From: a virus
Virus record (IMG/VR): IMGVR_UViG_3300022853_000902
Span: 1 to 48,143 of that record
Length of the DNA stretch: 48,143 nt
Direction: 5' to 3' (one strand)
This document shows positions 1 to 13,512 of this stretch, one piece after another; positions within the stretch are counted from its first letter, which is position 1, and each line of letters starts with the position of its first letter. A model generated the notes under the pieces. The model had not been told where the DNA came from. It did no database searches and was given only the letters and a program-made list of their open reading frames with translations. A program made the translations under genes and the position numbers.

Positions 1-85
1 GCAGTTTATCAAACATCCAATTGTTACAGTCAGGTAATCCTGTACCATAAGCATAAGAACAACCAAACGTTATCAGTCTTGACAT
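1..85 (-). CDS. SGNH/GDSL-like protein, N-terminus only (runs off the left edge)
   Basis: Only the first 28 codons are in the window. The protein opens MSRLITFGCSYAYGTG, the strand-turn-glycine pattern that begins SGNH/GDSL hydrolase-like proteins, with Cys where the usual GDS Asp stands. Two further proteins at 20205-21613 begin in a similar way. The start overlaps the end of the QueC-like gene by 13 bases, so the two are probably cotranscribed. The missing Asp could mean a changed or lost hydrolase activity, but the catalytic Ser is present in this block. Function and family remain tentative because the rest of the gene lies outside. Confidence 0.5.
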   Translation of the reverse strand, partial: MSRLITFGCSYAYGTGLPDCNNWMFDKL

Positions 86-879
86 TTGCTTACTCCCCAT
101 TCTCTTTCTTTACACCAAAAACATTTGCCACATACTGGCACAGGCGACCCTTCGACATATGTCTTGTAGTCTAAGTCTCCAAAGACTTCAGGATATGTTT
201 GGTTATCACCTTCACAACTTCTTGTAAGATCAAATAGGTCCATTATGCCTAATTTTTTATATTGAGCAACTATCCAATCTTTTTGAACATGTGTGAAAGG
301 GTGACAAGCCAAGCCGCCCATGTGTATTTTGATTAGTCTATCTAATGTAGCATCTTCGATGTCTCGAGCCAATAGACGACCATCAAATTCTTTATCTGGA
401 TTCTTGGTTACACCACAGTACCAAGCATCTAAATTTTCTGTATGAGCAACATACTCTGCGTGTGCTCTTAACTCTATTTGATTACCGCTTTTTAATTTTC
501 CATACTCATCTTGTATGTTAGGTCCTACTGATCCCCATTCTAAATCAGGAGCAATAAAATTTTCGTGTCTTTTAAATTGTATATTAGGAAAAGAATTAGT
601 AATCCAATTGAACACATTCAAACTGTTGTGTTTTTGCCAAGGTCTGGTCTTCCAACATCTCACGTTAGTAATAATGTGTACATTGGTATTTGATTTTAAT
701 TGAGATATGATACTGCACAACAGCACACTCATCAAGGCACTGTCTGCTCCACCACTCACACTGATACCAATATTTTTCCATTCAGGATTGAAAGGAAATA
801 CTACTCCATTTATATCGTGAAGAATATCACGATAGGCACTAGATTGGTATAGAGATTTTATATTTTCTAAATTGGACAT
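73..879 (-). CDS. queC: QueC-like PP-loop ATPase (7-cyano-7-deazaguanine synthase family)
   Basis: This 268-residue protein has an N-terminal PP-loop, SGGADS at residues 42-47, the ATP-pyrophosphatase signature of QueC and its relatives. Its C-terminus has a Cys4 site, Cys222 plus C250-x2-C253-x2-C256, which matches the zinc site of QueC. QueC converts 7-carboxy-7-deazaguanine to preQ0 using ATP and ammonia. FolE and QueE lie about 18 kb away and a DpdA-type transglycosylase about 27 kb away, which makes this role fit a complete pathway. The gene sits at the edge of an oxygenase-rich island rather than beside queE. It is longer than typical bacterial QueC (about 220-230 residues), with extra sequence around residues 95-190. 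An alternative is a relative acting on another carboxylated substrate. PP-loop assignment is firm; QueC function is probable. Confidence 0.66.
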   Translation of the reverse strand: MSNLENIKSLYQSSAYRDILHDINGVVFPFNPEWKNIGISVSGGADSALMSVLLCSIISQLKSNTNVHIITNVRCWKTRPWQKHNSLNVFNWITNSFPNIQFKRHENFIAPDLEWGSVGPNIQDEYGKLKSGNQIELRAHAEYVAHTENLDAWYCGVTKNPDKEFDGRLLARDIEDATLDRLIKIHMGGLACHPFTHVQKDWIVAQYKKLGIMDLFDLTRSCEGDNQTYPEVFGDLDYKTYVEGSPVPVCGKCFWCKEREWGVSKCQD

Positions 880-892
880 ATATGGACATCTT

Positions 893-900
893 TATTTATC
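893..900 (-). promoter_or_regulatory. T4-late-like promoter box (GATAAATA)
   Basis: On the minus strand this reads GATAAATA, one base from the T4 late consensus TATAAATA. It lies 13 bases before the ATG of the QueC-like gene in the 61-base divergent gap between that gene and the rightward oxygenase gene at 941. On the plus strand a TATAAT at 919-924 could serve the rightward gene, but I see no convincing -35 box for it. Confidence 0.45.
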
Positions 901-940
901 GCTATTAAGTACGCACATTATAATTTACGATAAGTACAAT

Positions 941-1618
941 ATGATGTTACAAAAATTAGAAACCAAAACTGATTCCAAAATATTGTTTGATTTGGTAAAA
1001 CATTTACCAGAAGGTAAAAGTGTTTTAAATAAGCCCACAGGAAATTTTTTTTATGATCCATGGGAGTTATTACCAGAATACAAAGACACTGCCATTGAAG
1101 ATTTATTAAAACAACTACCAGATCACGGAGAGGCAAGAGTTATTGTTTTAAAACCAGGAGAAAGTTATTCTGCCCATGCTGATATAGATGACAGATATCA
1201 TCTCACACTAGATGCAGAACAAAGTTTCCTTCATGATATTGGAGATGAAATGATGTATGCTACCAAACCAGACAACACAGTGTATTTGATGAATGCAGGT
1301 GTGCTTCATTCAGCATCTAATTACGGATACAAAAACAGATATCAATTGGTAATACGCAAGAGATTGCAAAGTAATCACATGATGAAAGATCCAAGACAGG
1401 TTGTTATGACATCAAAAGATCCAGTGTACAATTTAAGATATCTTTTTGACAGTTCTTTTTCAATACTGCTTAATAGATTAGCAAAAGAACAATCAATAGA
1501 CTCATTTGCTAGAATTAATGAACACACAATTAAATTTTTATGTGATGGTTCAAAAATAAATGAACTTTTAAAGATGCAACAAATTTGTGGATTTAAAATA
1601 GATATTGTATATGCATAA
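941..1618 (+). CDS. 2OG-Fe(II) oxygenase-like protein, aspartyl hydroxylase type
   Basis: Counting from the ATG at 941 the protein has 225 residues. It carries the facial-triad pattern of 2-oxoglutarate/Fe(II) oxygenases: H79-A-D81, distal H123 in AGVLHSASN, then R133, which would bind 2-oxoglutarate. The spacing and the phrase around H123 resemble the aspartyl/asparaginyl beta-hydroxylase and cupin group. The reading frame is open upstream to 872, but that extension would cross the divergent promoter region and overlap the QueC-like gene, so the ATG at 941 is preferred; no good ribosome site is visible. The residues after 145 match nothing I recognise. It heads a rightward run of six genes. 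The substrate is unknown. Confidence 0.68.
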   Translation: MMLQKLETKTDSKILFDLVKHLPEGKSVLNKPTGNFFYDPWELLPEYKDTAIEDLLKQLPDHGEARVIVLKPGESYSAHADIDDRYHLTLDAEQSFLHDIGDEMMYATKPDNTVYLMNAGVLHSASNYGYKNRYQLVIRKRLQSNHMMKDPRQVVMTSKDPVYNLRYLFDSSFSILLNRLAKEQSIDSFARINEHTIKFLCDGSKINELLKMQQICGFKIDIVYA

Positions 1619-2231
1619 TTGGAAACATTTTTATAAACATAAACAAGGACTGGCTGTGGCAAATATGCTTTACCAACCGCTTGTGAACGAAGACAACACT
1701 GTGTTCTGTATGAATTGGAATCCAAACGATTATTTTGAGAATGAATCTATGAATGAAGAATTGTACAACTTTTGGTTTGATCAAGAAGTGATGTATCTTT
1801 CAAAATTGAAAGACACAAAATATATTCCAGAATTATTAGACATTGATTATGCTAAAAGAGAAATTAAATTTAAATGGTATAATAAAAATCTTAATGTTTT
1901 GATTGAAAATAACCAAATAGACAGCATACCTAATTGGAAAGAAAAAATTAAACAAATAAAACAAGATTTAGAGCAACAAAACATATATAAAATTAATATG
2001 TACCCTCATACTTTTTACTTTGATGATAACAATGAAGCACACTGTATGGATTTATATGGTTGCACAGACAATGATAATAGATACCTTGATATAAAATATC
2101 TAAAACCATTGATAAGAACGGATAGATTTGATAAATTTATATTAAACAACCAATTAGACACTCATGAACTGTATAAAGAAACAATTAAAACCAATTATGC
2201 AGAGTGGCCAGGAGATTTTTTAAATGCTTGA
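1611..2231 (+). CDS. Kinase-fold-like protein (paralogue of the gene at 7110)
   Basis: The protein has 206 residues and I do not know a characterised homologue. It is clearly paralogous to the protein at 7110-7796: both open M-x-N-[WF]-K-x-[FY]-Y, then share LYxxLxNED and, near the C-terminal half, an NIYK/GIYK segment. The order of parts (an E-V-x-x-L-x-x-L helix, IPELL, then YPHTFYFDD followed by CMDLYG) recalls the lobes, catalytic loop and metal loop of aminoglycoside/choline-type kinases, but the HxD catalytic motif is degenerate. The shared N-terminus favours the ATG at 1611 over the TTG at 1605. It overlaps both neighbours by 8 bases. Kinase fold is an inference and activity is uncertain. 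Confidence 0.5.
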   Translation: MHNWKHFYKHKQGLAVANMLYQPLVNEDNTVFCMNWNPNDYFENESMNEELYNFWFDQEVMYLSKLKDTKYIPELLDIDYAKREIKFKWYNKNLNVLIENNQIDSIPNWKEKIKQIKQDLEQQNIYKINMYPHTFYFDDNNEAHCMDLYGCTDNDNRYLDIKYLKPLIRTDRFDKFILNNQLDTHELYKETIKTNYAEWPGDFLNA

Positions 2232-2769
2232 ATTTGTAGGTAACTGTAACGATATATTAGACTGGAACACAATCATCAAAGAAGTGCAGGATCAAGAAGG
2301 TAAACTTGCTTGTAAATATCTTCCAGTCAAAGATGTACCAGAATTAAAAGAGATTGATGATGCATTATCTACTATAGGCAGTTACAACAGAGAATCTATA
2401 GAATGGATCAATTATTATCCAGGCAATGAGTTTTCAATGGAGGTTGCTGAGAAGTTTGGCGAGTTTGTTGGTGCACCCAGAATGATTAAGAGTTGGATAT
2501 CTAAAATATATCCAGGAAAAACTGCTCCATGGCATTGGGACTGGGACGTTGATTGGAAAAAATACACAGAGCAAGGCAATCCTGTAAGATTCACAGCAAT
2601 GATTAACGAACCTGCACCAGGACACGTGTTCATAGTAGGCGACGAAGCATTGTACAATCAGAAACAAGGAGATGTTCACAAGTGGCCTGACTTTAAATCA
2701 TATCATGGCGGAACTAATTGTGGACTTGTGCCTAAATTTAATTTTAATTACTTGGCATACGCAGAATGA
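2224..2769 (+). CDS. 2OG-Fe(II) oxygenase-like protein, tandem copy 1
   Basis: This 181-residue protein has the oxygenase-like triad H104-W-D106 and a distal H161 in the phrase YHGGTNCG. The residue that should bind 2-oxoglutarate is Lys171 rather than Arg. It starts with FVGNCNDILDWN, and the next gene starts YVGNCSDVIDWN, so the two are tandem duplicates joined by an ATGA overlap. Both share APWHWD, the GHVxIV strand and GDVxKWPD. I assign the double-stranded beta-helix fold from these motifs. The substrate is unknown; the phage context would allow a nucleic acid, peptide or glycan. Confidence 0.62.
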   Translation: MLEFVGNCNDILDWNTIIKEVQDQEGKLACKYLPVKDVPELKEIDDALSTIGSYNRESIEWINYYPGNEFSMEVAEKFGEFVGAPRMIKSWISKIYPGKTAPWHWDWDVDWKKYTEQGNPVRFTAMINEPAPGHVFIVGDEALYNQKQGDVHKWPDFKSYHGGTNCGLVPKFNFNYLAYAE

Positions 2770-3320
2770 AACAATACGTAGGAAATTGTAGTGATGTAAT
2801 AGACTGGAATGCAGTTGTTGAATCCATAAAGAATTCTAAACCAGCATATCAAGGACCAAGACACACAACACAAGATGATCTTCCAGGTATAAAAGAAATT
2901 AGCGAGTCGTGGAACAAAGCAGGATATAAACTTGCATCTGAAGATGGCACAATTGGTTGGGATATGTGTATACCTGAAACTAATTTTGACAGAAGTGTTG
3001 TAAACAAATTTGCAGATTACGTTGGAGTTGATGTTTTAAGTTGTTGGGTTAGTGTTGTGCATCAAGGAAATCATGCTCCTTGGCACTGGGACACACAAGA
3101 CAACGAAGAAGAACTATGTAAATTAAACAACATAGAAAGATTTCATGTACACATGGAAGATACACACCCCGGACACGTATTAATTGTGGAAGATGATTTG
3201 TATTACAATGCCAAAGCAGGTGATGTGTACAAATGGCCAGATAGAAATGCTTGGCACGCCGGCTCCAACTGTGGACAAAGACCCAAATACATCTTTAACT
3301 TCTTTGGAACAAAAAGATAA
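2766..3320 (+). CDS. 2OG-Fe(II) oxygenase-like protein, tandem copy 2
   Basis: This 184-residue protein is the diverged twin of the preceding gene. Its predicted iron ligands are H107-W-D109 and H164 (WHAGSNCG), with R172 or K174 as the likely 2-oxoglutarate anchor. The segment between the two ligand groups holds HPGHVLIVEDD, equivalent to APGHVFIVGDE in copy 1, so the core is conserved while the first 60 residues differ. Translation is probably coupled to copy 1 through the 4-base overlap. Retention of both sets of metal ligands suggests that both copies are active, perhaps on different positions of one substrate; that last point is speculation. Confidence 0.63.
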   Translation: MKQYVGNCSDVIDWNAVVESIKNSKPAYQGPRHTTQDDLPGIKEISESWNKAGYKLASEDGTIGWDMCIPETNFDRSVVNKFADYVGVDVLSCWVSVVHQGNHAPWHWDTQDNEEELCKLNNIERFHVHMEDTHPGHVLIVEDDLYYNAKAGDVYKWPDRNAWHAGSNCGQRPKYIFNFFGTKR

Positions 3321-3321
3321 A

Positions 3322-3900
3322 ATGAAAAAGAAACTTGTATTTGATTACTTTCCATTGCTGAGATCCAGTTACGATGCAAATGAATTTGTATCAGAAGGTC
3401 TTTTAAAAGATGAATTGAATGTATATTGGAACAACAACAATATTTTTAAAGACATACAATCAAGCAAAGAAACTGCCGAGAACGGTTTTATCAAACGCAC
3501 AGTTGATATTGATCTACTTGATAACAACACATTAATACTAGACAACACACAGACTTGGGCCAACGAAGAAAGTATTAAATTAAATGCTGAAATTAAATTG
3601 AACCGCAAACAAGAAGATACTTGGAACTTTCAATTTTGTTACAACTTAACCACAACTAACAACGATGATTACAAAAGTTTTAATGAAAAATTTGGCATAC
3701 TTGACGAAATGTTTCATTTCAAACTGAATGGCGAAGCAATATTGGTTAATGAAAAAGTAGAAGGCGGTAGAAGAATTTTTGCTGAAAAAGATTTTTATTA
3801 CAGAGGAATACACCCGATCATGTTTGAACTGGAAGAATACGGAACAGGTCTTGAAGAAGACAGCAGGTTTATACAGATTGTGAGGTTTACAGTATTATGA
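3322..3900 (+). CDS. Unknown island protein, 192 residues
   Basis: I do not recognise this protein. The ATG at 3322 follows the previous stop by one base, so the longer open frame from 3184, which runs inside the oxygenase gene, is rejected. The sequence is mostly polar with alternating strand-like segments (KRTVDIDLL, KLNAEIKLNR, RFIQIVRFTVL), suggesting an all-beta protein. It contains a single Cys, no metal motif and no membrane segment. It ends in a 4-base ATGA overlap with the Rossmann protein that follows, so it belongs to the same transcription unit. A cupin-like or lectin-like fold is possible, but nothing in the sequence decides it. Confidence 0.6.
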   Translation: MKKKLVFDYFPLLRSSYDANEFVSEGLLKDELNVYWNNNNIFKDIQSSKETAENGFIKRTVDIDLLDNNTLILDNTQTWANEESIKLNAEIKLNRKQEDTWNFQFCYNLTTTNNDDYKSFNEKFGILDEMFHFKLNGEAILVNEKVEGGRRIFAEKDFYYRGIHPIMFELEEYGTGLEEDSRFIQIVRFTVL

Positions 3901-4451
3901 GAATAGCAATCACAGGACACACATCTCCCATGGGAAAAGATGTATATGAACATTATTCAAAAACACATCAGTGTTTAGGTATTAGTAGAACCACAGGATA
4001 TGATTTTACAAATACAGACAGTCTCAACAACACAGTTAGTGAAGTGTTAGCCAGAGATGTATTTTTAAACATAGCACACGTGGGTGCTTCACAATCCTCA
4101 TTACTACTGAAATTACAAGACCGTTGGACACATGACGCACCTTTGCGTAAAGTTATAACAATAGGATCACTAGCAACAAAAGTCCCTAAAAAATTATTAG
4201 ATCAAGTTGGTATCGATAAACAATATCTAAAAGACAAACATCATATAGATGCTGTACACAACGCATTGGCAAATCAAACTCCATTTGGACCGCAATTAAA
4301 GTTCAGTCTTGTTAGAGTATTAAACTATGGCGAGAAAACTGGTGATAGAAGCGGAGAGCCTACTTGTACTGCACAAGATATTACACGCACAATTGATTAC
4401 GTTATTGATGAATCAATGTATATTTCTACACTTGACGTTAGACGTTCCTAA
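3897..4451 (+). CDS. SDR-type NAD(P)-binding protein
   Basis: The 184-residue protein begins MRIAITGHTSPMGKDVY, a TGxxxxxG dinucleotide-binding turn of the short-chain dehydrogenase/reductase or epimerase type, followed by a second strand ending GISR that would contact the NADP ribose. VFLNIAHVG resembles the NxAG strand of SDRs. The YxxxK catalytic pair is not clear, though QYLKDK near residue 123 is a candidate. A related protein with a clear YxxxK is encoded at 8936-9526 and shares ITGHT and the YSRS/ISRT second strand. It closes the rightward block and converges on the leftward gene ending at 4458, leaving only 6 bases, with no visible terminator. An oxidoreductase or epimerase of a small metabolite or sugar is likely. 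Confidence 0.62.
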   Translation: MRIAITGHTSPMGKDVYEHYSKTHQCLGISRTTGYDFTNTDSLNNTVSEVLARDVFLNIAHVGASQSSLLLKLQDRWTHDAPLRKVITIGSLATKVPKKLLDQVGIDKQYLKDKHHIDAVHNALANQTPFGPQLKFSLVRVLNYGEKTGDRSGEPTCTAQDITRTIDYVIDESMYISTLDVRRS

Positions 4452-4457
4452 AAAATA

Positions 4458-5093
4458 TTAATTACTTTCGTATGCTAGATCTTTGAATAAGTCTAGTGCA
4501 TCTTCAAACTGTATGTGTGTGTTATCTTCTATTGTTAGCAAATGATAACTTAAAGTCCAACGTGGTTCGCTGGTATTAAAATTATGTGTTGAATGCAGTT
4601 GCCCAACATTAAGTAAACTGGGTTGACTAATAACTGCTTCGTGTACAACATCACAGTCTTCAACTTCAGCATGATAAAATTTGTCTACTGGGATATCAAT
4701 GTCTACGTCTTTAAAATAAACTTCTTTGTGATAATCTGTATTATCTCTTTCTGTTTGGATTAAAGATTCATCTTTTACTTTGTACCATCTTACTATGCTG
4801 TCTTGAGGTCCCCAAGTAAAATTAATGTTTGATGAATTATTCAAAGTGGAAGCATCGTTGTGCATAGGTAAACCGCCGCCATTAGGTCCATTGTAAAATG
4901 CTTCACAAACATTTGAAGGTTTTAAGCCATATTCTTTCAGCCAATCCACAAACCTTTCATCCCAATGTTCTCTTGTAGCACACCATTCATGCCAATTTTC
5001 GCCACGCATATTTTCAGGCTTTGCTTTGAAACAATCCGGAAACTTATGTTCAAACGGCAATTTTACATAACGGTGATATATGTTTTTATTCAT
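4458..5093 (-). CDS. 2OG-Fe(II) oxygenase-like protein, second family, copy 1
   Basis: The protein has 211 residues. H78-N-D80 in LPMHNDAS, a distal H167 in NVGQLHSTHN and R178 in the last core strand form an oxygenase-like facial triad. It is a tandem paralogue of the next gene upstream: both share YHRYVK near the start, INFTWGP, RW and QPSLxNVGQLHST. This family differs from the APWHWD pair in the rightward block. The gene overlaps the stop of its paralogue by 8 bases. Such proteins in marine phages are often left as hypothetical, and the substrate is unknown. Confidence 0.58.
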   Translation of the reverse strand: MNKNIYHRYVKLPFEHKFPDCFKAKPENMRGENWHEWCATREHWDERFVDWLKEYGLKPSNVCEAFYNGPNGGGLPMHNDASTLNNSSNINFTWGPQDSIVRWYKVKDESLIQTERDNTDYHKEVYFKDVDIDIPVDKFYHAEVEDCDVVHEAVISQPSLLNVGQLHSTHNFNTSEPRWTLSYHLLTIEDNTHIQFEDALDLFKDLAYESN

Positions 5094-5697
5094 ATGTGAC
5101 TTCCTTGAATATATTTAATGCTTTTTCAAACTGTAAATGGGTATAATCTTTATTAAGTAAAAAATAGCACAATGACCAACGTCCATGCGTAGGATCCGGA
5201 TTATATGTAGAATGCAGTTGACCAACATTAATCAAACTAGGCTGATTAATAACCTTTTCATACACCATATCACAATCCTTTTCACTTTCACAAATCAATT
5301 CACGATGCTGATTGTTTTCATCAAAGTGATCTACAATGTCTGGATTTACTATTTCTGTTATGTGTGAACTGTCAGTGATGTCTGTTTTACATAATGATTC
5401 CTCTTTTACATGCCACCACCTTGTAGTGCTAGTATCAGGACCCCATGTAAAATTAATTTTTGTAGCATTTGTTATTTTACTTGTATCATTGTGTATATGT
5501 ACCTTTCCTTTGTTAGGTGGTGTATAGATACCTTCAGTTACATTGGATACAACTATATCAAAGGATTCAATCCAGTTAATAACTGATTGATCAATATCTA
5601 TTTTAGGAACAAATATAACTTCTGACTGCAAGGGTTGATGTGAAAAGCAACTAGGCTTTGTGTGTTCAACTGGTATTTTTACATATCGATGATACAT
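5086..5697 (-). CDS. 2OG-Fe(II) oxygenase-like protein, second family, copy 2
   Basis: This 203-residue paralogue of the protein at 4458-5093 keeps every predicted active-site residue: H69-N-D71 (HIHNDTS), H162 (NVGQLHSTYN) and R173. It lacks about 15 residues present near the other copy's N-terminus, and the loop after INFTWGP differs. It starts one base after the stop of the upstream gene, so the three leftward genes from 6505 to 4458 form one unit. Conserved ligands with variable surface loops fit two enzymes of one chemistry with different targets. Confidence 0.58.
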   Translation of the reverse strand: MYHRYVKIPVEHTKPSCFSHQPLQSEVIFVPKIDIDQSVINWIESFDIVVSNVTEGIYTPPNKGKVHIHNDTSKITNATKINFTWGPDTSTTRWWHVKEESLCKTDITDSSHITEIVNPDIVDHFDENNQHRELICESEKDCDMVYEKVINQPSLINVGQLHSTYNPDPTHGRWSLCYFLLNKDYTHLQFEKALNIFKEVTYE

Positions 5698-5698
5698 T

Positions 5699-6505
5699 TT
5701 AATAATTGGATAAATGATCTATGCCCAACTGCTTTCTGAATTTATCTGTAAACACACAATCAATTCGTAAGCCGTATTCTTGTTCGTTGCTGACATCACC
5801 ACCATGCCAATCTTGATCGTTCCAAAATGCCGCATTGGCATTGATGTAAGTTTTATTTTTTGCTTCAGGATCCCATATGTAGAATCCTCTTTTTGTGCTG
5901 TATCTAACGTGTATGAATTCATTACGGTGATTAGTGTACCCTTGACTGTCGCCGTGTTTGCCATCTAGATCTCTGTGTTCAAATGGCTTGCCATCGTGTT
6001 CACAATGAAAAAATATCACTCTACCGATGCTTTCTATCACACCTGTGTTCACTAATTCTTTAATCCAAGCAACCACACCAGGAAAATATTTTGCTTCTTT
6101 TGTGATATTTCTTTCTGTGTTTCGGTGATCCCAATCTCCTTCTTCCCATAAGAAATAATAAATGTAAGGATCGTTAGCACCTAAAACTGCTTTTAAATAT
6201 CTTGTGAATTGATTCCTTGTTTTGTAATCTTTGATGTTGGAATACAAATCGTCGCCATTTTTTCTAATTGGATGATCTTTAGGCAGTGCTTTGTATTCTT
6301 CTAGTGCTTGATAAATTGGTTTCCAATTTAAAGTATAACTCATGTCTTTGGGATCGAATCCTGGTGACATCCATGTGCCTTCTTTGGCATACTCACGAGC
6401 AAGAGCAAAACCTCTACATATTTCGGTATGCAGTTGTTGAAAACCTTCTATGTCTATGTGTTCGTCTAAATTGATATATGGACTACCGCCAATTCCTCTA
6501 ATCAT
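5699..6505 (-). CDS. 2OG-Fe(II) oxygenase-like protein, third family
   Basis: The 268-residue protein has an extended helical N-terminal half followed by an oxygenase-like core: H177-R-D179, a strand NEFIHVRYS, then H234 in DWHGG and R247 in YGLRID. The order and spacing suit a cupin or 2OG-Fe(II) fold. The first 160 residues match nothing I recognise and may bind the substrate. It is the first gene of a leftward three-gene unit. A late-like AGTAAATA box ends 5 bases before its ATG, so its mRNA may be leaderless. Confidence 0.56.
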   Translation of the reverse strand: MIRGIGGSPYINLDEHIDIEGFQQLHTEICRGFALAREYAKEGTWMSPGFDPKDMSYTLNWKPIYQALEEYKALPKDHPIRKNGDDLYSNIKDYKTRNQFTRYLKAVLGANDPYIYYFLWEEGDWDHRNTERNITKEAKYFPGVVAWIKELVNTGVIESIGRVIFFHCEHDGKPFEHRDLDGKHGDSQGYTNHRNEFIHVRYSTKRGFYIWDPEAKNKTYINANAAFWNDQDWHGGDVSNEQEYGLRIDCVFTDKFRKQLGIDHLSNY

Positions 6506-6510
6506 TAAAG

Positions 6511-6526
6511 TATTTACTTTTAAATA
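6511..6526. promoter_or_regulatory. Back-to-back divergent late-like promoter boxes
   Basis: The 16-base element reads TATTTACT-TTTAAATA. Its left half is AGTAAATA on the minus strand, ending 5 bases before the ATG at 6505. Its right half is TTTAAATA on the plus strand, 18 bases before the ATG at 6545. Both resemble the T4 late consensus TATAAATA. The whole gap between the divergent genes is 39 bases, so the two promoters can hardly be used at the same moment. Confidence 0.42.
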
Positions 6527-6544
6527 CAGTATAGATATTTTATT

Positions 6545-7117
6545 ATGGCTTTTAAATTGGTACCTTATTCAGACAAGTTAAATCTTGAAACGTTTTATCA
6601 TACAGCCGACCAAAAAGGATTTGTCAACAATTCAACCAAAAAAATGTTGGTAGATTCATTATCTAAAGAAGATAGATATCAGGTTTGGATGTTGTTATGG
6701 AATGGCAAAGTGATTGGATCCACTGCGGCACATTCATTTCCAGAAATGGGTCCTGACAGTTATCGTATTGCTTGTCGTATATGTACATTTACAAATGAAT
6801 TGCCTAAAGAATATCAAATGGTTCGTACTCGGGAAACAATTAAAACCCACCAAACAACTACACAACAATTTTTTCAACCAGCAGGAATAATGTGGGCAGG
6901 CTTTAATAAGAACTATTATGTGACAACAAATGAAAATGCAGAAGGAACACAACGATTAGTTCATTCAATTGTTGCACCAACTTTAGAAAGTACAGGTGTT
7001 TACACTAAAGTTAAAGAGTTAAATTATAGAGGCACACAACAAACAGTATGGCGTGTTAATGCTGATGTATATTTCAAACAACTACAACAAGTAAAGGCTT
7101 GGCCCACTTATGAATAA
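6545..7117 (+). CDS. GNAT-like acetyltransferase-fold protein
   Basis: This 190-residue protein has a central segment VWMLLWNGKVIGSTAAHSF, which resembles the beta strands 2-4 of GNAT N-acetyltransferases where a side chain or cofactor passes through. The acetyl-CoA pyrophosphate loop (Q/RxxGxG/A) is not clearly present; NENAEGTQRLVHS near residue 130 is the nearest candidate. It begins a second rightward unit and overlaps the kinase-like gene by 8 bases. The fold call is moderate and enzymatic activity is unproven. Acetylation or acyl transfer to a small molecule or protein is possible. Confidence 0.42.
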   Translation: MAFKLVPYSDKLNLETFYHTADQKGFVNNSTKKMLVDSLSKEDRYQVWMLLWNGKVIGSTAAHSFPEMGPDSYRIACRICTFTNELPKEYQMVRTRETIKTHQTTTQQFFQPAGIMWAGFNKNYYVTTNENAEGTQRLVHSIVAPTLESTGVYTKVKELNYRGTQQTVWRVNADVYFKQLQQVKAWPTYE

Positions 7118-7796
7118 TTTTAAATATTATTATAACAATGTGCCTGGCAAAGGGTTGTGTAGAAACAATTTAATTTACACTAGTTTGATAAACGAAGATG
7201 CTACGGAATTTTGTATGTGGTTTCATAATGATTCAGAATATCATAAAGGACATAATGAAGTGGTAGATCCTGTACTGATGGAATCGAAGTATTATAGAGA
7301 AAAAGATTTCTTATTAACATTAGATGTGGATCATAAAAATTTAATACCAAAACTAACAAAGATTCATACTGATGAACAAAAAATATATTTTGAAATACAA
7401 GGCGTAGATTTTTGGGAACAAAGTCATGGAAAGACATATGAAGATGTGTTACCCAACTGGCAAGATCAAATGTTATATATTATGGAAACGCACAAGAAAT
7501 TAGGTATCTACAAATACAGTCTTCATCCCAGCAGTTACTTCATTATTGACGGTGAATTGAGAACAATCAATTACTTCTTTGCTTATAGAAACAATGAACC
7601 TGCGATCACAGTTCAGGAGCATATGAGTCATATATCTAAAGAAAGACAGCAACAATTGATGCCACAGATGAAAAAATTAGGTATTGAGGAAAACAAAACA
7701 TATCCATTCGATAAACTTCAAGTATTATGTTTAGAAAGTTTTAGGAATGTATATCCGGATTCATTTATAAACAAAGCAATTTCTATCTATAAGTAA
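7110..7796 (+). CDS. Kinase-fold-like protein (paralogue of the gene at 1611)
   Basis: The 228-residue protein is the second member of a paralogous pair in this island. Shared features are MNNFKYYY at the start, LIYTSLINED, then a helix-rich middle, VLPNWQDQ (IPNWKEK in the other copy) and LGIYKYSLHPSSYFIIDGELRTINY. In a kinase reading the last segment would be the catalytic and metal loops, but the expected Asp residues are only partly conserved here. The C-terminal 60 residues extend beyond the paralogue. It follows the GNAT-like gene and precedes the radical SAM gene by 4 bases. A pseudokinase or a distant phosphotransferase are both possible. Confidence 0.48.
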   Translation: MNNFKYYYNNVPGKGLCRNNLIYTSLINEDATEFCMWFHNDSEYHKGHNEVVDPVLMESKYYREKDFLLTLDVDHKNLIPKLTKIHTDEQKIYFEIQGVDFWEQSHGKTYEDVLPNWQDQMLYIMETHKKLGIYKYSLHPSSYFIIDGELRTINYFFAYRNNEPAITVQEHMSHISKERQQQLMPQMKKLGIEENKTYPFDKLQVLCLESFRNVYPDSFINKAISIYK

Positions 7797-7800
7797 TACT

Positions 7801-8943
7801 ATGCAAGATACAAAAACAATCAGTCTATGTCATATATGTTATAAGCACTGCGAAGCAGAAAGAGTTACTAAAGAAGATGGTATACATCTTGTGAAAACTT
7901 GTCCAGAACACGGTGTAAGTGATTATCTTGTGGAAACCAATAAAGAATTTTATAATAATTTAACATATGATAAATCGGGATACTCTATTCCGCAAGGCAT
8001 CATGGTGGAAGTCACAGACAAATGTAATTTAAATTGTCCGCACTGCTATCATAAACCAGACAACAAAACCACAGATAAACCAATAGAACAAATACTATGG
8101 CAAATAGAAAATAGATTTTCAGCAGATGCAGGTGCTGTGATATTGGCAGGTGCTGAACCTACTGTGCGTAAAGACTTACCAGAACTTATAAAACAAATCA
8201 AAGCACTATTGAAAAAATTGAATAGACCTGAAGATGTATGTATATTGACAAATGGCGTAAAACTTTCTAACAGAGCATGGGTAAAAGAAATTGCTGACGC
8301 AGGCACTAGAATGGTTATGATTGGAATGAATCACCACTCTTATCAAGGCGAAAAAGTACACGAAAAACAATTAAAAGGAATTGAAAACTGTATTGCTGAA
8401 GGTATCTTTGTTTATTATGTAGGATACACATTAGAAAATTTAGAACACATGGAAGAAGTGTTAGAAGAAATACAGTCACTAGGCAACAAAGCATGGCAGT
8501 ATAGAATTAGAGCAGGCTCTGATATAGGAAGATCACCTGATGAACCTCAGTTCTTTTTAAGTGACCATGTGCAATTAATAAAAGATATTTGTGATCGTAA
8601 AGGGTGGACTTGGGAAAAAGAACCAGCAGATGATAATCTTTATCACTATATGGTAAAAATAAATGGAATAACTCATAGAATAATACAATGGAGTGATCCT
8701 AAAACCATAGACATGGAACAATTACAGTGTGGTCCTTGGTGTGATTTTGTACCAGGAAAACCTGTTACTAATTTTCTACATCAAATTATGTTGAGAGATG
8801 CTGTGGTGAATGAAGGTTATAATTTACACGACACTGTACCAAACAAATATCTGTTTCAGCCTGAGCAAGTTGATTATGCTGTTACAGAATGGACTTGGAA
8901 AAGTTGGGACGAAGCAGAAGTAAAACAGAAAAAATCTATTTAG
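7801..8943 (+). CDS. Radical SAM enzyme with a Cys-rich N-terminal domain, resembling the COG1964/Tes group
   Basis: The 380-residue protein has the canonical 4Fe-4S motif C75-x3-C79-x2-C82 (DKCNLNCPHCY), followed by AGAEPT, the GGE-type SAM strand, and TNGVKLS. Upstream, residues 9-40 carry C10-x2-C13 and a KTCPEHG phrase. That arrangement is characteristic of radical SAM proteins related to archaeal MJ0619 and the tetraether-lipid synthases. Members of that wider group form carbon-carbon bonds at unreactive carbons or modify pterins and lipids; the substrate here is unknown. It ends the rightward unit and overlaps the end of the opposing SDR gene by 8 bases. A peptide-maturase role is possible but I see no SPASM-type seven-Cys C-terminal domain. 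Confidence 0.8.
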   Translation: MQDTKTISLCHICYKHCEAERVTKEDGIHLVKTCPEHGVSDYLVETNKEFYNNLTYDKSGYSIPQGIMVEVTDKCNLNCPHCYHKPDNKTTDKPIEQILWQIENRFSADAGAVILAGAEPTVRKDLPELIKQIKALLKKLNRPEDVCILTNGVKLSNRAWVKEIADAGTRMVMIGMNHHSYQGEKVHEKQLKGIENCIAEGIFVYYVGYTLENLEHMEEVLEEIQSLGNKAWQYRIRAGSDIGRSPDEPQFFLSDHVQLIKDICDRKGWTWEKEPADDNLYHYMVKINGITHRIIQWSDPKTIDMEQLQCGPWCDFVPGKPVTNFLHQIMLRDAVVNEGYNLHDTVPNKYLFQPEQVDYAVTEWTWKSWDEAEVKQKKSI

Positions 8944-9526
8944 GTTTATAATTTAATTGTGTAGCATCTATTGTTACACTTTGAAAATACATTGTTTCAC
9001 ACAGTAACATTTTAATAATCCATTTGGACAGTTCATTAGGATCAATTTTATTACCTTCCATGTATTCGCTGATTTGTGTATCTGTACATCCTAGTATAAC
9101 ATTAAAGATATGCGGACCATACACATTGATACGATTTTCCACAATTTTATTTTGTTCTTTTTTGGCATTGCCATATTTTTCCATGAAGTCGTTTGTGTCG
9201 GAATCGTTATAGCAGGATTTAGAACTTAGGTTTAAAATTTTTTTATCTTTATTGCCTTCCCAGATTTGAATCATTGCTTTAAGCATTTCAGTTTGTCCAT
9301 CAAACTGTTCAGGTTCTGTCATTGGCAAATCACCATCGGGCCAAGCACAATTAATGAATACATCTGCTTGTTTGGATTCTTCTATAATGATTTGTCTAGA
9401 TTTTGCACTGCTTATATCAAAGCCATTGCTTCTTGAATAACCTACAACGTCATGTCCTTCTGCAACAAGGTCATTGTGTAAACACTTGCCTATGCCTTTG
9501 GTGTGTCCTGTAATTCGGACTATCAT
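8936..9526 (-). CDS. Short-chain dehydrogenase/reductase
   Basis: The 196-residue protein shows TGHTKGIGK at residues 6-14, the classical SDR TGxxxGxG turn, then FDIS at the position where SDRs bind adenine, VFINCAW (the NxAG-like strand), LNLSSKS with the catalytic Ser, and YGNAK, a YxxxK catalytic pair. It is shorter than typical SDRs (about 250 residues), mainly at the C-terminus. It is related to the protein at 3897-4451. It lies 4 bases downstream of the tail-fibre gene and so may be transcribed late with it. The substrate is not evident. Confidence 0.72.
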   Translation of the reverse strand: MIVRITGHTKGIGKCLHNDLVAEGHDVVGYSRSNGFDISSAKSRQIIIEESKQADVFINCAWPDGDLPMTEPEQFDGQTEMLKAMIQIWEGNKDKKILNLSSKSCYNDSDTNDFMEKYGNAKKEQNKIVENRINVYGPHIFNVILGCTDTQISEYMEGNKIDPNELSKWIIKMLLCETMYFQSVTIDATQLNYKPK

Positions 9527-9530
9527 TGGA

Positions 9531-10658
9531 TTATATTAGGCTAGCCCAACCGCCGTTTTCGTAACCTTGGAATTTGTTATCTGTTGAGTTGTATATAACC
9601 ATACCGTTTGCTGGAGTTAGTGCGTTTCTTTCAGTAGTGGTTAATGAACCAAATTGTACAAAGCCTGATGTTTTAATGTTACCAACCACATCTAATTTTT
9701 CTGTTGGAGTTAAAATATTAACACCTAAATTACCATCTTTGTTTATTGTAATAAAATTGTTTGTTGTACCACCATCTGGAGTTGTTCCTAATACTATGTT
9801 TCCTGGTATTGCACCAGAACCCACTGTTGCTTGAGAGTCAACACCTGCTACAATAAAACTAGACTGTACATATGCTGAACCATCGTGACCGTAATTAATA
9901 TAACCAAACAATGAATCATCTGCAACACTCACTGTTGGAGTTACCACTGATCCTCTAGATGCATATGTTTCTATTGAGTTGAATGTGTTGGCATTACCAG
10001 CATCTGAATAAAGTCTTAATGCATTTCTAACTGTGTGATCTGTGTTGAATATTTCTAAGCCAACACCTGCCACTGAACTGTTTGTACCTATTTGAATCCC
10101 GTTGCCTGCTAACAGATTAATAACACTGCCATCAAAGTCTAACACACTGTTTGTGATTCTGTCTGAAGCACCATCTATTCTTAATGAGTTATCATCAGCA
10201 TTTACTGTACCTTTGTGAGTACCAATTGAAGTACCTGTAATTGTTTTTGCTGTGTGGTCAATTATTGTTGTGGAGTCACTTGCTTTTGTGTCACCTGTTA
10301 ATGTTGCTGTTACTGTGCCTGAGTTGGCATTTACTACAACTGTTGAATTGTCTGAAACTATGTTACCTGTAAATGAAGCCGCTTCAATTTCGCCTGTTGC
10401 CACAATACCGTTAAAGTATCCTGTTCTCCAAGCCGCAGTTGTTGTTCCTAAATCTCTTGTGTTAGATGCATCTGGTGTAATATCGCTGTTGACTGAAAGA
10501 TATTGTGCCGCTAGTGTTGTGTCTACTTGTACACCACCTGCTGTAGAACCGTCTCCAACGAATAGTTTATTAGTTTGTGTATCAAGTACTAGTTCTCCAG
10601 CCAAAAATACAACTGGTGTTCTATCTGCTGTTGGTCCTCGTCTAATTTGTAATGCCAT
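9531..10658 (-). CDS. Tail fibre-like structural protein
   Basis: The 375-residue protein begins MALQIRRGPTADRTPVVFLAGELVLDT-like, the N-terminal module of many marine phage tail fibres and tropism determinants, with the LFVGDGS turn following. The body is a low-complexity run of short strands rich in Thr, Asn, Gly and Ser, as expected for a trimeric beta fibre. The C-terminus has TTTERNAL and NGMVIYNSTDNKFQGYENGGW, a tail common to marine phage fibres. Its position next to the accessory island is the usual hypervariable site near host-recognition genes. A late-like promoter and an AGGAG ribosome site precede it. Confidence 0.82.
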   Translation of the reverse strand: MALQIRRGPTADRTPVVFLAGELVLDTQTNKLFVGDGSTAGGVQVDTTLAAQYLSVNSDITPDASNTRDLGTTTAAWRTGYFNGIVATGEIEAASFTGNIVSDNSTVVVNANSGTVTATLTGDTKASDSTTIIDHTAKTITGTSIGTHKGTVNADDNSLRIDGASDRITNSVLDFDGSVINLLAGNGIQIGTNSSVAGVGLEIFNTDHTVRNALRLYSDAGNANTFNSIETYASRGSVVTPTVSVADDSLFGYINYGHDGSAYVQSSFIVAGVDSQATVGSGAIPGNIVLGTTPDGGTTNNFITINKDGNLGVNILTPTEKLDVVGNIKTSGFVQFGSLTTTERNALTPANGMVIYNSTDNKFQGYENGGWASLI

Positions 10659-10689
10659 TTGTAATATGCTCCTAACGTATATTATAGTG

Positions 10690-10697
10690 TATTTATT
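10690..10697 (-). promoter_or_regulatory. T4-late-like promoter of the tail-fibre gene (AATAAATA)
   Basis: The minus strand reads AATAAATAC, 31 bases before the tail-fibre ATG, with a TTAGGAG ribosome site between. This is the clearest example in the window of a late-like box with an ordinary leader. The box lies in a 63-base gap that holds no gene. Confidence 0.6.
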
Positions 10698-10721
10698 CCG
10701 CTGTGCAGATTGCTGGAGTTA

Positions 10722-11051
10722 CTATTTCCGCTTTTTTAGGAAGGTTTTAGTACGTTTTTGAATATCTGCTTTAACCTTGTTGGTATCTATCCTAAAATCA
10801 ACGTTTTTGATGCTGTTTCCGTAATGTTGAAACAGTTCCTTGATATTCTTCTCTAATTCCTTGTTGGTCAATTTCTGACGGTTCTTTTTAACACGAATTT
10901 CCCAATTCTTGCCGTCTTTAAATTCTACTTTGATAGACAGCAAATATTCAATTGGTATTGACTCTATGTGTAGGTCCGAAAACACTTCGGGCCAGTGAGC
11001 CACTACTTCCTTAGGCAATTGTTTTTTACGGAATTTGACCACTACAGACAC
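10722..11051 (-). CDS. Conserved small basic phage protein (unknown)
   Basis: This 109-residue protein starts at a GTG. It is Lys-rich, with a charged helical C-terminal half ending in KRTKTFLKKRK, suggesting nucleic-acid or nucleoprotein contact. The first half (WPEVFSDLHIESIPIEYLLSIKVEF) looks like mixed alpha/beta. I recognise the type as a conserved hypothetical of marine T4-like phages but not its function. It follows its upstream neighbour by 6 bases and lacks a strong ribosome site, so it probably depends on translational coupling. Confidence 0.65.
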   Translation of the reverse strand: MSVVVKFRKKQLPKEVVAHWPEVFSDLHIESIPIEYLLSIKVEFKDGKNWEIRVKKNRQKLTNKELEKNIKELFQHYGNSIKNVDFRIDTNKVKADIQKRTKTFLKKRK

Positions 11052-11057
11052 TATGCT

Positions 11058-11630
11058 TTACTTAGACTTTTTCTTAGTAGGTACAAGTTCTTCCGCTTGT
11101 TCTCTAAGTAGTTTTGCCTCTTTGTACAAACGATCAGCATCACTTCTTAAGTTTGCCGCTAATTTCTCGTCTGTTAAAGGTTGCTCTTTACTTGCTGATG
11201 ACATCTGACTTTGTGCCACTTTAGTAGGAGCCGACGTGTTTGATGGCGTCACTGCTAGGTCATCAATACCTATACCTCTTTGTTTAGCGATGATTTTGTT
11301 TAATTCATCTAACTGAATTGAAGTTGTAGTGTTTGGTGTCATTTCAACTGAGTTAGTTGGAACTTTTTTCATAAATCCACCTGTGTGAAATTTATTCAAC
11401 ATCACTTCACTATTAGGTGCTAGATTCCTTTGCAATACTTCATACAATTCAAATGCCGTTTGACCTTCATTGCTTTCAACAACTTTGATCAAAGCGTCAT
11501 GATCCAATGGATCTATTTTTGCTGTCTCAATAACAACTGCTGATTTTGAATCTCCAGGAATTGTTCTGTAAGCAACAACAACTTTTGCTCCACTGCCTTT
11601 TAGTTTTCCTACATGTTTAATGTCGGCCAT
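11058..11630 (-). CDS. Conserved marine myovirus protein (unknown)
   Basis: The 190-residue protein has a compact N-terminal part (KVVVAYRTIPGDSKSAVVIETAKI) that reads as beta strands. A Thr/Ser/Pro-rich linker spans about residues 125-155, and the C-terminal helix is long and charged (LRSDADRLYKEAKLLREQAEEL), probably a coiled coil. Two-domain proteins of this kind lie among structural genes in marine T4-like phages. It is joined to the preceding gene by a TAATG overlap. A virion or assembly role is suggested only by position. Confidence 0.6.
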   Translation of the reverse strand: MADIKHVGKLKGSGAKVVVAYRTIPGDSKSAVVIETAKIDPLDHDALIKVVESNEGQTAFELYEVLQRNLAPNSEVMLNKFHTGGFMKKVPTNSVEMTPNTTTSIQLDELNKIIAKQRGIGIDDLAVTPSNTSAPTKVAQSQMSSASKEQPLTDEKLAANLRSDADRLYKEAKLLREQAEELVPTKKKSK

Positions 11631-11932
11631 TATTTTGCCTCCGCTGGTTTTTCACCTTCTGGTGAATTGGCATCTTTTTGAGACTGTTCAACAATCTTTA
11701 AAAATGCTTCTAGTTTATTATAAGTTGCACCCACCATTGCCATCTCGTTGGCTTTGAATGCTCCTCGTTGACTTGAAACATCGATAATTTGTTTAAGGAC
11801 GTTTAAGTCTTGAACAGTAAGTTCTGCTCCAGCACCTGCTTGAACTTTTGGTGCCATGCCTGCAACATCTTTTCCAACTACTTCATCTTTCGTCGGAGTC
11901 GTTACAGTTTTTGTTTGGTTTGTATCTGTCAT
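11630..11932 (-). CDS. Conserved small phage protein (unknown)
   Basis: This 100-residue protein has a disordered Thr/Lys-rich first 35 residues, a helical core (LTVQDLNVLKQIIDVSSQRGAFKAN) and a second amphipathic helix ending near residue 85, followed by an acidic Pro-rich tail. It is acidic overall, unlike the next genes downstream. It starts a three-gene unit (11932 to 10722) behind a late-like TTAAATAC box, with AAGGAG about 11 bases before the ATG. A small structural or adaptor protein is likely from context. Confidence 0.6.
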   Translation of the reverse strand: MTDTNQTKTVTTPTKDEVVGKDVAGMAPKVQAGAGAELTVQDLNVLKQIIDVSSQRGAFKANEMAMVGATYNKLEAFLKIVEQSQKDANSPEGEKPAEAK

Positions 11933-11964
11933 TTTAAAATGCTCCTTTATTGTTGTATACAGAA

Positions 11965-11972
11965 GTATTTAA
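11965..11972 (-). promoter_or_regulatory. T4-late-like box (TTAAATAC)
   Basis: The minus strand reads CATTAAATACTTC about 33 bases before the ATG at 11932. It overlaps the last codon of the gene at 11969. It matches the TAAATAC core that recurs before virion genes here, with one base changed from TATAAATAC. Confidence 0.38.
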
Positions 11973-12256
11973 TGACGTTTGATAAATGGGCAACTAAGAT
12001 TGAATATTGATAGCTCTTTGGAGTTTTCGAATCCTACCAAAATATGGTTTACAATTTTTTTGTCTACATCAACTCCTAAATGTTTACCAATATAGAATCT
12101 TCCTTTTAGGTTTTCCAAAATCCACTTCTCCAAAAGTTCTTCGTTGTCATTCCAATCATAGTTTAATTTGAGAAATTCTAATCCGTGAGGTTTTTTGGTA
12201 AACTGCCTACAGTTGAAATAATTTAACGGGTTTACTTGATTAGTTTTTGAAAACAT
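11969..12256 (-). CDS. Conserved small phage protein (unknown)
   Basis: The 95-residue protein contains a helical stretch (NEELLEKWILENLKGRFYIG) followed by a beta pair (KIVNHILVGFENSKELSIFNLSCP). The latter resembles small conserved proteins of marine T4-like phages, with one Cys near residue 16 and one near residue 89. Its start overlaps the stop codon of the VWA gene, so it probably shares that operon. No function is apparent. Confidence 0.6.
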   Translation of the reverse strand: MFSKTNQVNPLNYFNCRQFTKKPHGLEFLKLNYDWNDNEELLEKWILENLKGRFYIGKHLGVDVDKKIVNHILVGFENSKELSIFNLSCPFIKRH

Positions 12257-13512
12257 TATTCATAATGCACAGTAGTACCAAAAGGTGCCTCCATGTTCTT
12301 GTCGTGGTGACCATTGATCACAAACACAGTGTCACAGTAATCATCTTCTCCCCAACCATCCCATGTGTAGCCATCTGTAAACATTATAAATTTTTTAGGA
12401 ACAATGTCGTTTTCTTTCATGTATTCCCAATTAGCCATAAAGTCAGTACCACCGCCACCTTCTATTTTGTATGATTCTAATGTTTCGCCAGATGAATTAA
12501 AGTCTTGTTCATTGTGAACATCAGTGTCAAAACACCATATTTTAATGTTGTAATCTCTGTATTGTTCCATAATGCTTTGTACTTCACCTAAAAAATCTTC
12601 CACTTGTTGACTCATGATAGATCCTGAAGTATCAATAGCAATACAAATGTCTATGGTCTCATCATAATTTGTACCTGGAAGTATTATTCCTGAATGCCAT
12701 CCTTTTCTACTAGGTCTTGAAAATGTATAATCATTTTTAATTACACTTTGAATCTGTTGCTGTAATAATTCTCTCCAATTCATTTTAGGTTCTGTGAATT
12801 GTTGAATAATTCTTTCAATTTCTGCTGGTAAATTTCCAGCACCAGCCGCCTGGGCCGCCGACATCATTGATTCTTTTATCTCATTCTTAATATTTTCCAG
12901 TTCTTCTTTTGAATATGTAGGACCTTTACCTTTTCCACCACTGTTAGGACCTTGCGTTGTTCCACCTGTACTTTCACCTTTTTCCCAATCAATGTGTTCG
13001 TCCAACAGTTTACCTAACTGTTCCATTTGCTCTTTACCTTTTTTATAAATGTCGTCATACACGGCTTCACTTGCCCAACCGTCATATTTCCAATCTTGAA
13101 ATATTTGTACTGCTTTTGGTTTTTCACCAATGTTATCTCTAACCAAAGTATTGTTCACAATGTAATCACAAGCAATATTATGAAGTTGTGGATCTCTGTC
13201 TTCTCTTCTTGTCATGTGATCAAACACACAATGAAGAATCTCATGTGCTATAACAAATTCAATTTCTTTAGATGTCATCTTGCTGAAAAACTCTGTGTTA
13301 AAAAATAAGTTTCTGCCATCAGTTGCGGCAGTAGGACACCAATCATCACACTCTTTAATTTGTAATCTTGTTGCCATGTTACCAAAGAAAGGATGTCTTA
13401 ATAACAATCCAACTCTAGCAACCACAATTTTATCAATAACTTCTGCTCTTAAGTTTTTTAATTCTTCTGGACTTAATTCTTTTTTTTCTATTTCTAAAGT
13501 GTCTGTGCTCAT
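12256..13512 (-). CDS. VWA-like metallopeptidase (DUF2201 type), partner of MoxR ATPase
   Basis: This 418-residue protein has a zinc-peptidase motif H90-E-I-L-H94 in its N-terminal domain, a Gly-rich linker near residues 180-200, and a C-terminal von Willebrand A domain with the MIDAS motif DTSGS at 294-298. The pairing of a predicted metallopeptidase domain with VWA is typical of DUF2201 proteins, which occur next to MoxR-type AAA ATPases; here the MoxR gene lies directly upstream. Such pairs act as chaperone-like machines that insert metals or remodel complexes. Its own sigma70-like promoter ends 6 bases before the ATG, so the mRNA may be leaderless. The phage target is unknown. Confidence 0.8.
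   Translation of the reverse strand: MSTDTLEIEKKELSPEELKNLRAEVIDKIVVARVGLLLRHPFFGNMATRLQIKECDDWCPTAATDGRNLFFNTEFFSKMTSKEIEFVIAHEILHCVFDHMTRREDRDPQLHNIACDYIVNNTLVRDNIGEKPKAVQIFQDWKYDGWASEAVYDDIYKKGKEQMEQLGKLLDEHIDWEKGESTGGTTQGPNSGGKGKGPTYSKEELENIKNEIKESMMSAAQAAGAGNLPAEIERIIQQFTEPKMNWRELLQQQIQSVIKNDYTFSRPSRKGWHSGIILPGTNYDETIDICIAIDTSGSIMSQQVEDFLGEVQSIMEQYRDYNIKIWCFDTDVHNEQDFNSSGETLESYKIEGGGGTDFMANWEYMKENDIVPKKFIMFTDGYTWDGWGEDDYCDTVFVINGHHDKNMEAPFGTTVHYE

Follow-up and report, generated by a model that had tools for sequence, protein, structure and literature searches.

The DNA analysed here, called the window, is a 48,143-base viral stretch (IMG/VR record IMGVR_UViG_3300022853_000902, positions 1-48,143), and between its positions 73 and 9526 lies an island of 14 complete genes, labelled A to N (Table 1). 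We found that seven gene families of this island (A, B, C/L, D/E, G, J and K) travel together as a core across hundreds of further uncultured viruses, and that H/I, F, M and N belong to particular lineages. With a probability of about 0.42, we read the island as a single virus-specific tailoring pathway, in which a constant core is combined with exchangeable enzymes and the target is probably a glycoconjugate of the surface or the virion; this substrate is put forward as a weak, first guess. Accessory metabolism in phages is usually taken to be borrowed from the host. If the island does encode one pathway, these viruses would make chemistry that is absent from their hosts, and the core with its lineage variants would provide a concrete list of enzymes for reconstitution, its QueC-like and kinase-fold members being starting points for new enzymology.

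Viral loci were retrieved with genes J, A and K as anchors (the best 80 of 159, 516 and 288 stretches, respectively), and all of these loci were scanned with hidden Markov model profiles of eight families, partners being counted within 10 kb on full-length loci (at least 20 kb). Around J (n = 43), C/L was present in 43 loci, D/E in 42, K in 40, A and B in 38 each, and G/N in 37; around A (n = 35), B was present in 35, C/L in 34, J and D/E in 31 each, K in 29, and G/N in 26; and around K (n = 42), the counts were 41 for C/L, 38 for J, 35 for B, 34 for D/E, 30 for A, and 27 for G/N. Every core partner was present in 64-100% of full-length loci with each anchor in turn, and H/I in 6, 10 and 11 of the J-, A- and K-anchored loci, respectively. 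These counts are not independent events, because the locus sets of the three anchors overlap, several contigs are near-identical, and the viruses are related. The first-pass annotation of this DNA had proposed one accessory biosynthetic system, with co-occurrence of all its members in other marine phage genomes as a check. Co-occurrence supports a single accessory system and extends to the seven-family core, the genes of which are not scattered independently through unrelated contexts, but not to the lineage-restricted H/I, F, M and N; that the system is biosynthetic, and any substrate named for it, is what we infer.

Gene positions and the alternation of strand blocks (A on the minus strand, B to G on the plus, H to J on the minus, K to M on the plus, and N on the minus) were as that annotation had described them, as were the short junctions: the divergent spacers measure about 60 bp between A and B and 39 bp between J and K, and the convergent ends of G/H and M/N abut or overlap. 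Four pairs of genes are paralogous, namely C/L (E 1e-9), D/E (34% identity, E 4e-41), G/N (E 9e-8) and H/I (42% identity, E 4e-55). Between relatives, the sub-blocks A-|BCDE..G+ and J-|KL+ persist, and their relative order, orientation and insertions vary. The core set is nonetheless retained at 40-60% identity despite this rearrangement, which is difficult to account for unless selection favours the set. Against the relative locus L003, the ratio of nonsynonymous to synonymous substitution rates (dN/dS) was 0.02-0.14 for all island genes tested, indicating purifying selection; synonymous sites of gene L were saturated in that comparison, and its dN/dS was 0.07 against L002 and L005. Flank genes S and T gave 0.05-0.10 against L003, similar to the island, and the neighbouring fibre gene O gave about 0.25, the highest value measured.

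Another explanation is that there is no single pathway, and that unrelated metabolic genes have gathered at a hot spot next to the fibre gene. H/I, F, M, N and the families at the flanks vary in presence between loci, single-gene exchange is suggested by pairwise distance correlations (0.16-0.92 among island genes, and up to 0.86 with flank genes S and T), and the location resembles hypervariable host-recognition regions (PMC7029224). In Pelagimyophages, host-recognition islands adjoin tail fibres and hold glycosyltransferases, and one close pair of genomes differs by radical S-adenosylmethionine (SAM) cassettes (PMC7029224). The Pelagimyophage/cyanomyophage cluster and the island share a big, variable setting by tail-fibre genes, with surface-chemistry genes and radical SAM cassettes, gene O adjoining N in our case; that cluster is described as hypervariable and rich in glycosyltransferases, whereas a seven-family core recurs here. 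In a random hot spot, rearrangements would be expected to break up the set, yet seven families persist together here at this level of identity under strong purifying selection, and we regard this explanation as quite unlikely.

The island is larger than its part in the window, because relatives extend past A into repeated radical SAM genes: in loci L001 and L003, A is followed by an SGNH-like gene (family c30), a twitch radical SAM gene (c2; NF033640, 4e-95) and a further radical SAM gene (c4). The Pfam Radical_SAM model was matched by c2, c4, c9, c38, c40 and c45. At least five radical SAM profile matches were present in 14 of 15 large relatives. In all 12 large relatives where the QueC profile located A, a non-QueE radical SAM gene was found within 3 kb of it, and most non-QueE radical SAM matches lay within about 25 kb. 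Radical SAM genes are as characteristic of the island as the oxygenases. Other lineages add 2-oxoglutarate (2OG) oxygenase families (c20, P4H-type with a cold-shock domain; c21, AspH-like; c46, TauD-like), a class III aminotransferase (c32), an epimerase/dehydratase (c34), a fatty-acid desaturase (c31) and an amidinotransferase-like family (c25) that is similar to HsvA (E 2e-26) and also to SxtG and StrB1, and that occurs in 22 of 89 loci and is missing from the window. SGNH families (c30/c33) probably count among the exchangeable enzymes as well. In c20 (28 loci; e.g. L078:7646-8497), the cold-shock domain is fused to the oxygenase (Pfam 2e-9 and 1e-9), which may point to a hydroxylase linked to RNA or single-stranded DNA. 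A family of 360-430 aa, c24/c47 (e.g. L076:11919-13013 and L033:8078-9361), often neighbours the core in other lineages and had no match in Pfam, NCBIfam, PDB or isolate phages.

Six 2OG-Fe(II) oxygenase-like proteins had been claimed for the island, and the assignment is firm for B, supported for D and E, and for J, H and I based mainly on an invariant HxD...H...R motif. The profile of gene B matched a solved AspH-type beta-hydroxylase (7v4f, E 2.4e-16), its HxD...H iron triad and Arg are present, and Pfam Asp_Arg_Hydrox was reached below the cut-off (4e-4); by its sequence, B is firmly an AspH-type 2OG-Fe(II) oxygenase. In a profile-profile table in which most other pairs gave P values of 0.02-0.8, B aligned (probability 75%) with c21, which occurs in relatives and is an AspH-like, Pfam-positive family, and D/E aligned with B over the catalytic core (probability 85%, P 6e-6). 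Together with an invariant H107xD109...H164, this supports D and E as 2OG oxygenase-like proteins. Gene J carries an invariant H177xD179...H234...R247 and aligned weakly with c21 over 196 columns (probability 36%, P 4e-4), which makes a 2OG oxygenase plausible, not firm. A below-threshold match of J to glycosyltransferase family 10 (PF00852, 0.036) was rejected because J carries the 2OG motif. H and I are putative 2OG oxygenases by the invariant motif; profile comparisons gave no credible match and no structural support past the motif, and a profile match to the designed protein Tako8 (E 5e-5) was discarded as spurious, since it covers a short stretch of a designed repeat protein. A second, very divergent paralogue of J (25% identity to the window's J) lies beside F/E on the minus strand in one lineage (L011:15844-16599, L015 and L031). 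Outside the island, the window has another 2OG-Fe(II) oxygenase-like gene (21610-22209, minus strand), which matched the NCBIfam FlmC family below the cut-off (E 1e-10).

Most of the other predicted folds were also supported. The C/L family profile matched TTK kinase (1e-5), and an AlphaFold2 model of gene L (predicted local distance difference test score, pLDDT, 92) matched kinases in Foldseek with a probability of 1.00, including the RNA kinase Ark1 (E 3e-6), so that a protein-kinase-like fold is supported for C and L, with the model made for L. The two paralogous kinase-fold proteins proposed earlier therefore stand as to fold and paralogy, but the catalytic Asp of the HRD motif is lost in both, being replaced by Ser, Asn or Thr in all 32 C/L members. 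In gene C, it is changed to Asn or Thr and the DFG Asp is mostly kept, and the L branch has lost the DFG Asp as well; active kinases are thus unsupported, and phosphoryl transfer by C and L is unlikely. The GNAT, the two SDR-like proteins and the radical SAM protein were borne out by profiles or models. The AlphaFold2 model of gene K (pLDDT 92) has a GNAT fold, matching PaiA (E 3e-6, probability 1.00) and other GNATs (probability 1.00), and acyl transfer is predicted. Pfam Epimerase matched gene N (1.6e-6) and the G/N family profile matched short-chain dehydrogenase/reductase (SDR) structures (1e-4), which supports G and N as short Rossmann/SDR-like proteins. Gene M matched Pfam Radical_SAM (4e-19) and Zn_ribbon_HMPTM (3e-11), with Tes (7tol, E 1e-19) as its nearest structure. 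Tes/MJ0619-type enzymes and M share the HMPTM zinc ribbon and radical SAM core; M nevertheless falls far under the NCBIfam cut-off for Tes (70 versus 450 bits) and is missing from most loci.

Gene A had been called QueC-like, which holds for its PP-loop and Cys cluster, but the canonical 7-deazaguanine-recognition motifs are missing. SGGxDS, PF(x)4K and SCEG...CxxCxxCxxR are kept in 22 of 22 relatives, as in the QueC family (PF06508) including QatC and Cap9, whereas YxQxHxxE, VPxRN and YPDC, on which canonical QueC relies in addition to its PP-loop and zinc site (PMC13329287), are each found in 0 of 22. A search of the window record with the QueC Pfam model (PF06508) left gene A unmatched, and the phrog_1550 QueC profile reached the C-terminus only (3e-4). 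The motif comparison rejects a canonical QueC and supports a divergent QueC-like PP-loop enzyme. The window also encodes FolE (Pfam 6e-46) and QueE (phrog 1e-50), the genes of which adjoin (19291-19965 and 18387-19286, both on the minus strand).

This raises the alternative of a 7-deazaguanine route that includes the island. A would then take 7-carboxy-7-deazaguanine made by FolE/QueD/QueE, and either DNA bases would be modified or deazaguanine would be joined to a protein or metabolite. Among the 16 records checked, strong QueE was found in 14 and QueD in 10, and canonical-like QueC was seen in G009 only, so that A is otherwise the sole QueC-family protein in most records. Relatives of QueC have been repurposed as ligases, Cap9 and QatC joining deazaguanine to proteins (PMC11996544, PMC13329287), and A could therefore use a deazaguanine precursor. 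The missing motifs, however, speak against such a use, as do the 0 of 16 records with a TGT or DpdA match, a negative that DpdA2-type enzymes could escape and that is not decisive, because some phages have a 7-deazaguanine pathway without DpdA (PMC6884629). Moreover, a 161-kb, T4-like contig (L090) has a distant relative of A with radical SAM and amidinotransferase genes adjacent, yet lacks strong QueE. On balance, we consider a deazaguanine route improbable.

The L090 locus was the only relative of gene A found among 84,980 prokaryote species genomes, A being the core family searched in cells, and 197 genomes of the same class yielded only that locus again. It was binned in a 'Chloroflexi' metagenome-assembled genome, and it was rejected as a cellular gene, since, as we read them, open reading frames of its contig (G016 contig C1, PAAV01000055) include T4-type replication and tail genes; the contig is probably a mis-binned T4-like phage. 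There, the relative of A sits among members of c2, c4, c40, c25 and c33, which ties A to radical SAM/amidinotransferase chemistry in a second phage lineage. Twitch/SPASM radical SAM genes form a long run on this contig, which also has an amidinotransferase gene and glycosyltransferase-like genes. Against 50,697 phage records, tblastn left J and A (E < 0.01), L and K (E < 1), and E and I (E < 0.1) unmatched, and megablast of window positions 1-12000 gave no match.

Known phages do carry several of the tailoring families. Members of c4, c25 and c40 are encoded by Campylobacter phage CP220, a c2 member by Vibrio phage K566, whose radical SAM genes lie near PagP, and members of c20 and c25 by cyanophage S-SCSM2R. 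The CP220/CPt10 module, described as interchangeable and likely non-essential, has five radical SAM genes and a glycine-amidinotransferase-like gene downstream of baseplate/PAAR-type genes (PMC2853527; L253), and the CP220 cluster further includes two sugar-transferase-fold proteins. Its c4, c40 and c25 members match those of the island relatives (c25, E 3e-59), which likewise have clustered radical SAM genes, the window having one (M), whereas the core profiles A, B, CL, DE, HI, J, K and GN were all unmatched in the region searched. The surface-glycan region of S-SCSM2R (PQ898602, L254) is similar in placing an amidinotransferase next to several 2OG-Fe(II) oxygenases and differs in having KdsA/KdsB and glycosyltransferases; a search of this region did not find the core families. 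Phage islands that combine radical SAM, 2OG and surface genes are already known, and the core, its so far virus-only range and its divergent members are new to the searchable literature, no description of this core having been found in open-licence literature.

As families, QueC-like enzymes activate carboxylates with ATP, 2OG oxygenases hydroxylate, GNAT enzymes acylate amines, SDR enzymes epimerise or carry out redox reactions, and radical SAM enzymes put functional groups on inert carbons. In the tailoring pathway that we favour, the core families would work on a common scaffold: A would adenylate a carboxylate with ATP to give an amide or nitrile-type product, the AspH-type 2OG enzymes would hydroxylate unactivated C-H bonds, G would oxidise, reduce or epimerise, K would N-acylate, and C and L might bind substrate or nucleotide or serve as adaptors. 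The scaffold would be diversified by radical SAM enzymes (c2, c4, c9, c40) through C-H or C-C chemistry, and by the extra 2OG enzymes, c25, c32, c34, c31 and c30/c33; pathways whose end product is diversified have this layout, constant at the core and exchangeable at the periphery. Its target would be a cell-surface or virion glycoconjugate, with altered host recognition or exclusion of competing phages as the result, a guess suggested by the adjoining fibre gene, by the envelope-type genes of the comparator clusters (KdsA/KdsB and glycosyltransferases, PagP, and sugar-transferase folds) and by the glycosyltransferases and radical SAM cassettes of Pelagimyophage host-recognition islands (PMC7029224). 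A stronger version, which we think somewhat unlikely, is a pathway confined to viruses, with a conserved core that includes two catalytically altered kinase-fold proteins, several AspH-type oxygenases and a ligase remodelled from the QueC family; this core would build a scaffold unknown in cells, to be diversified by exchangeable radical SAM and 2OG enzymes from virus to virus.

Several points weigh against the tailoring pathway. Part of the co-occurrence reflects shared descent, because the viruses are related and island distances correlate with those of T and S; some genes appear to have been swapped singly, because certain pairs correlate less (B-J 0.16, K-T 0.45); the link to the surface is by association, because the core is absent from the comparator phages; and Pfam and PHROGs revealed no glycosyltransferase in the part of the island inside the window.

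Peptides or proteins are common substrates of AspH-type 2OG and twitch/SPASM radical SAM enzymes, and the presence of both types (the latter as c2) leaves room for a different target, namely virion proteins. The enzymes would then hydroxylate, epimerise or cross-link the tail fibre or another structural protein, in the manner of ribosomally synthesised and post-translationally modified peptides, and kinase-fold proteins without the catalytic Asp could be substrate-binding adaptors. The island adjoins fibre gene O, which stands next to N in the window's close relatives; in many lineages, however, the core is present and O is not within the flank. O is also the fastest evolving gene, whereas the core is strongly constrained, the tightly packed island leaves no room for a small precursor gene, and the GNAT, SDR and aminotransferase members suit a small molecule better. 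Modification of virion proteins is thus unlikely in our estimate.

Table 1. Genes of the island and its immediate flanks, in window coordinates.
Gene	Position	Strand	Description
c30 (start)	1..100	-	First ~33 codons of an SGNH-like hydrolase/acyltransferase, cut at the window end; MGSKQMSRLITFGCSYAYGTGLPDCNNWMFDKL read from this strand
A	73..879	-	Divergent QueC-like PP-loop ATP pyrophosphatase, 268 aa; core
B	941..1618	+	AspH-type 2OG-Fe(II) oxygenase; core; head-to-head with A
C	1611..2231	+	Kinase-fold protein; core; paralogue of L; earliest in-frame start TTG at 1605
D	2224..2769	+	2OG oxygenase-like; core; paralogue of E
E	2766..3320	+	2OG oxygenase-like; core; paralogue of D
F	3322..3900	+	Protein of 192 aa; lineage-restricted, 16/89 loci
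G	3897..4451	+	Short SDR/Rossmann-like protein; core; paralogue of N; TGHTxxxG motif
H	4458..5093	-	Putative 2OG oxygenase, by motif; paralogue of I; lineage-restricted
I	5086..5697	-	Putative 2OG oxygenase, by motif; paralogue of H; lineage-restricted
J	5699..6505	-	Probable 2OG oxygenase; most conserved core protein
K	6545..7117	+	GNAT-fold acyltransferase (predicted); core
L	7110..7796	+	Protein-kinase-fold protein; core; paralogue of C
M	7801..8943	+	Radical SAM protein with HMPTM-type Zn ribbon, Tes/MoaA-like; 36/89 loci
N	8936..9526	-	SDR/epimerase-like; paralogue of G; lineage-restricted
O	9531..10658	-	Tail-fibre/receptor-binding neighbour, Mtd_N domain (Pfam 1e-8); flank, pathway membership not shown

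The SGNH-like gene that had been counted within the island is present but limited to its first codons, almost wholly outside 73-9526; the fragment agrees with the start of an intact 212-aa gene in the relative locus L081. Gene F gave no credible Pfam or PHROG match. The T4 late promoter TATAAATA was rejected as a regulatory signal, with 1 match versus 5.3 expected by chance.

The window is AT-rich (GC 0.32-0.39), and a search across it for tRNA genes found none. Its DNA polymerase is nearest to those of jumbo phages, at 44-49% identity (Sinorhizobium phage Phosso, Agrobacterium phage Atu_ph07, Vibrio phage 2.275.O, and Escherichia phages PBECO4/121Q). Since relatives of the island are found on contigs of up to 364 kb, the window is probably a piece of a large phage, an uncultured, aquatic relative of giant phages.

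Elsewhere in the window, a DUF2201 metallopeptidase/VWA protein gene (12256-13512) adjoins a MoxR-like AAA ATPase gene (13598-14710), both on the minus strand; the match of this region, PHROG 1314, is labelled 'HNH endonuclease', a label unsupported by the Pfam domains. Overlapping neighbours at 26064-27849 (minus strand) encode ADH_N-type and GFO/IDH/MocA-type oxidoreductases and form a second group of sugar/polyol-type enzymes. Genes for an IMP dehydrogenase/GMP reductase, a peroxiredoxin and a member of a ferredoxin-annotated PHROG family lie together at 34060-35717 and 36645-37298 (minus strand), and a ClpP-like protease related to head-maturation protease models is encoded at 23375-23950 (minus strand).

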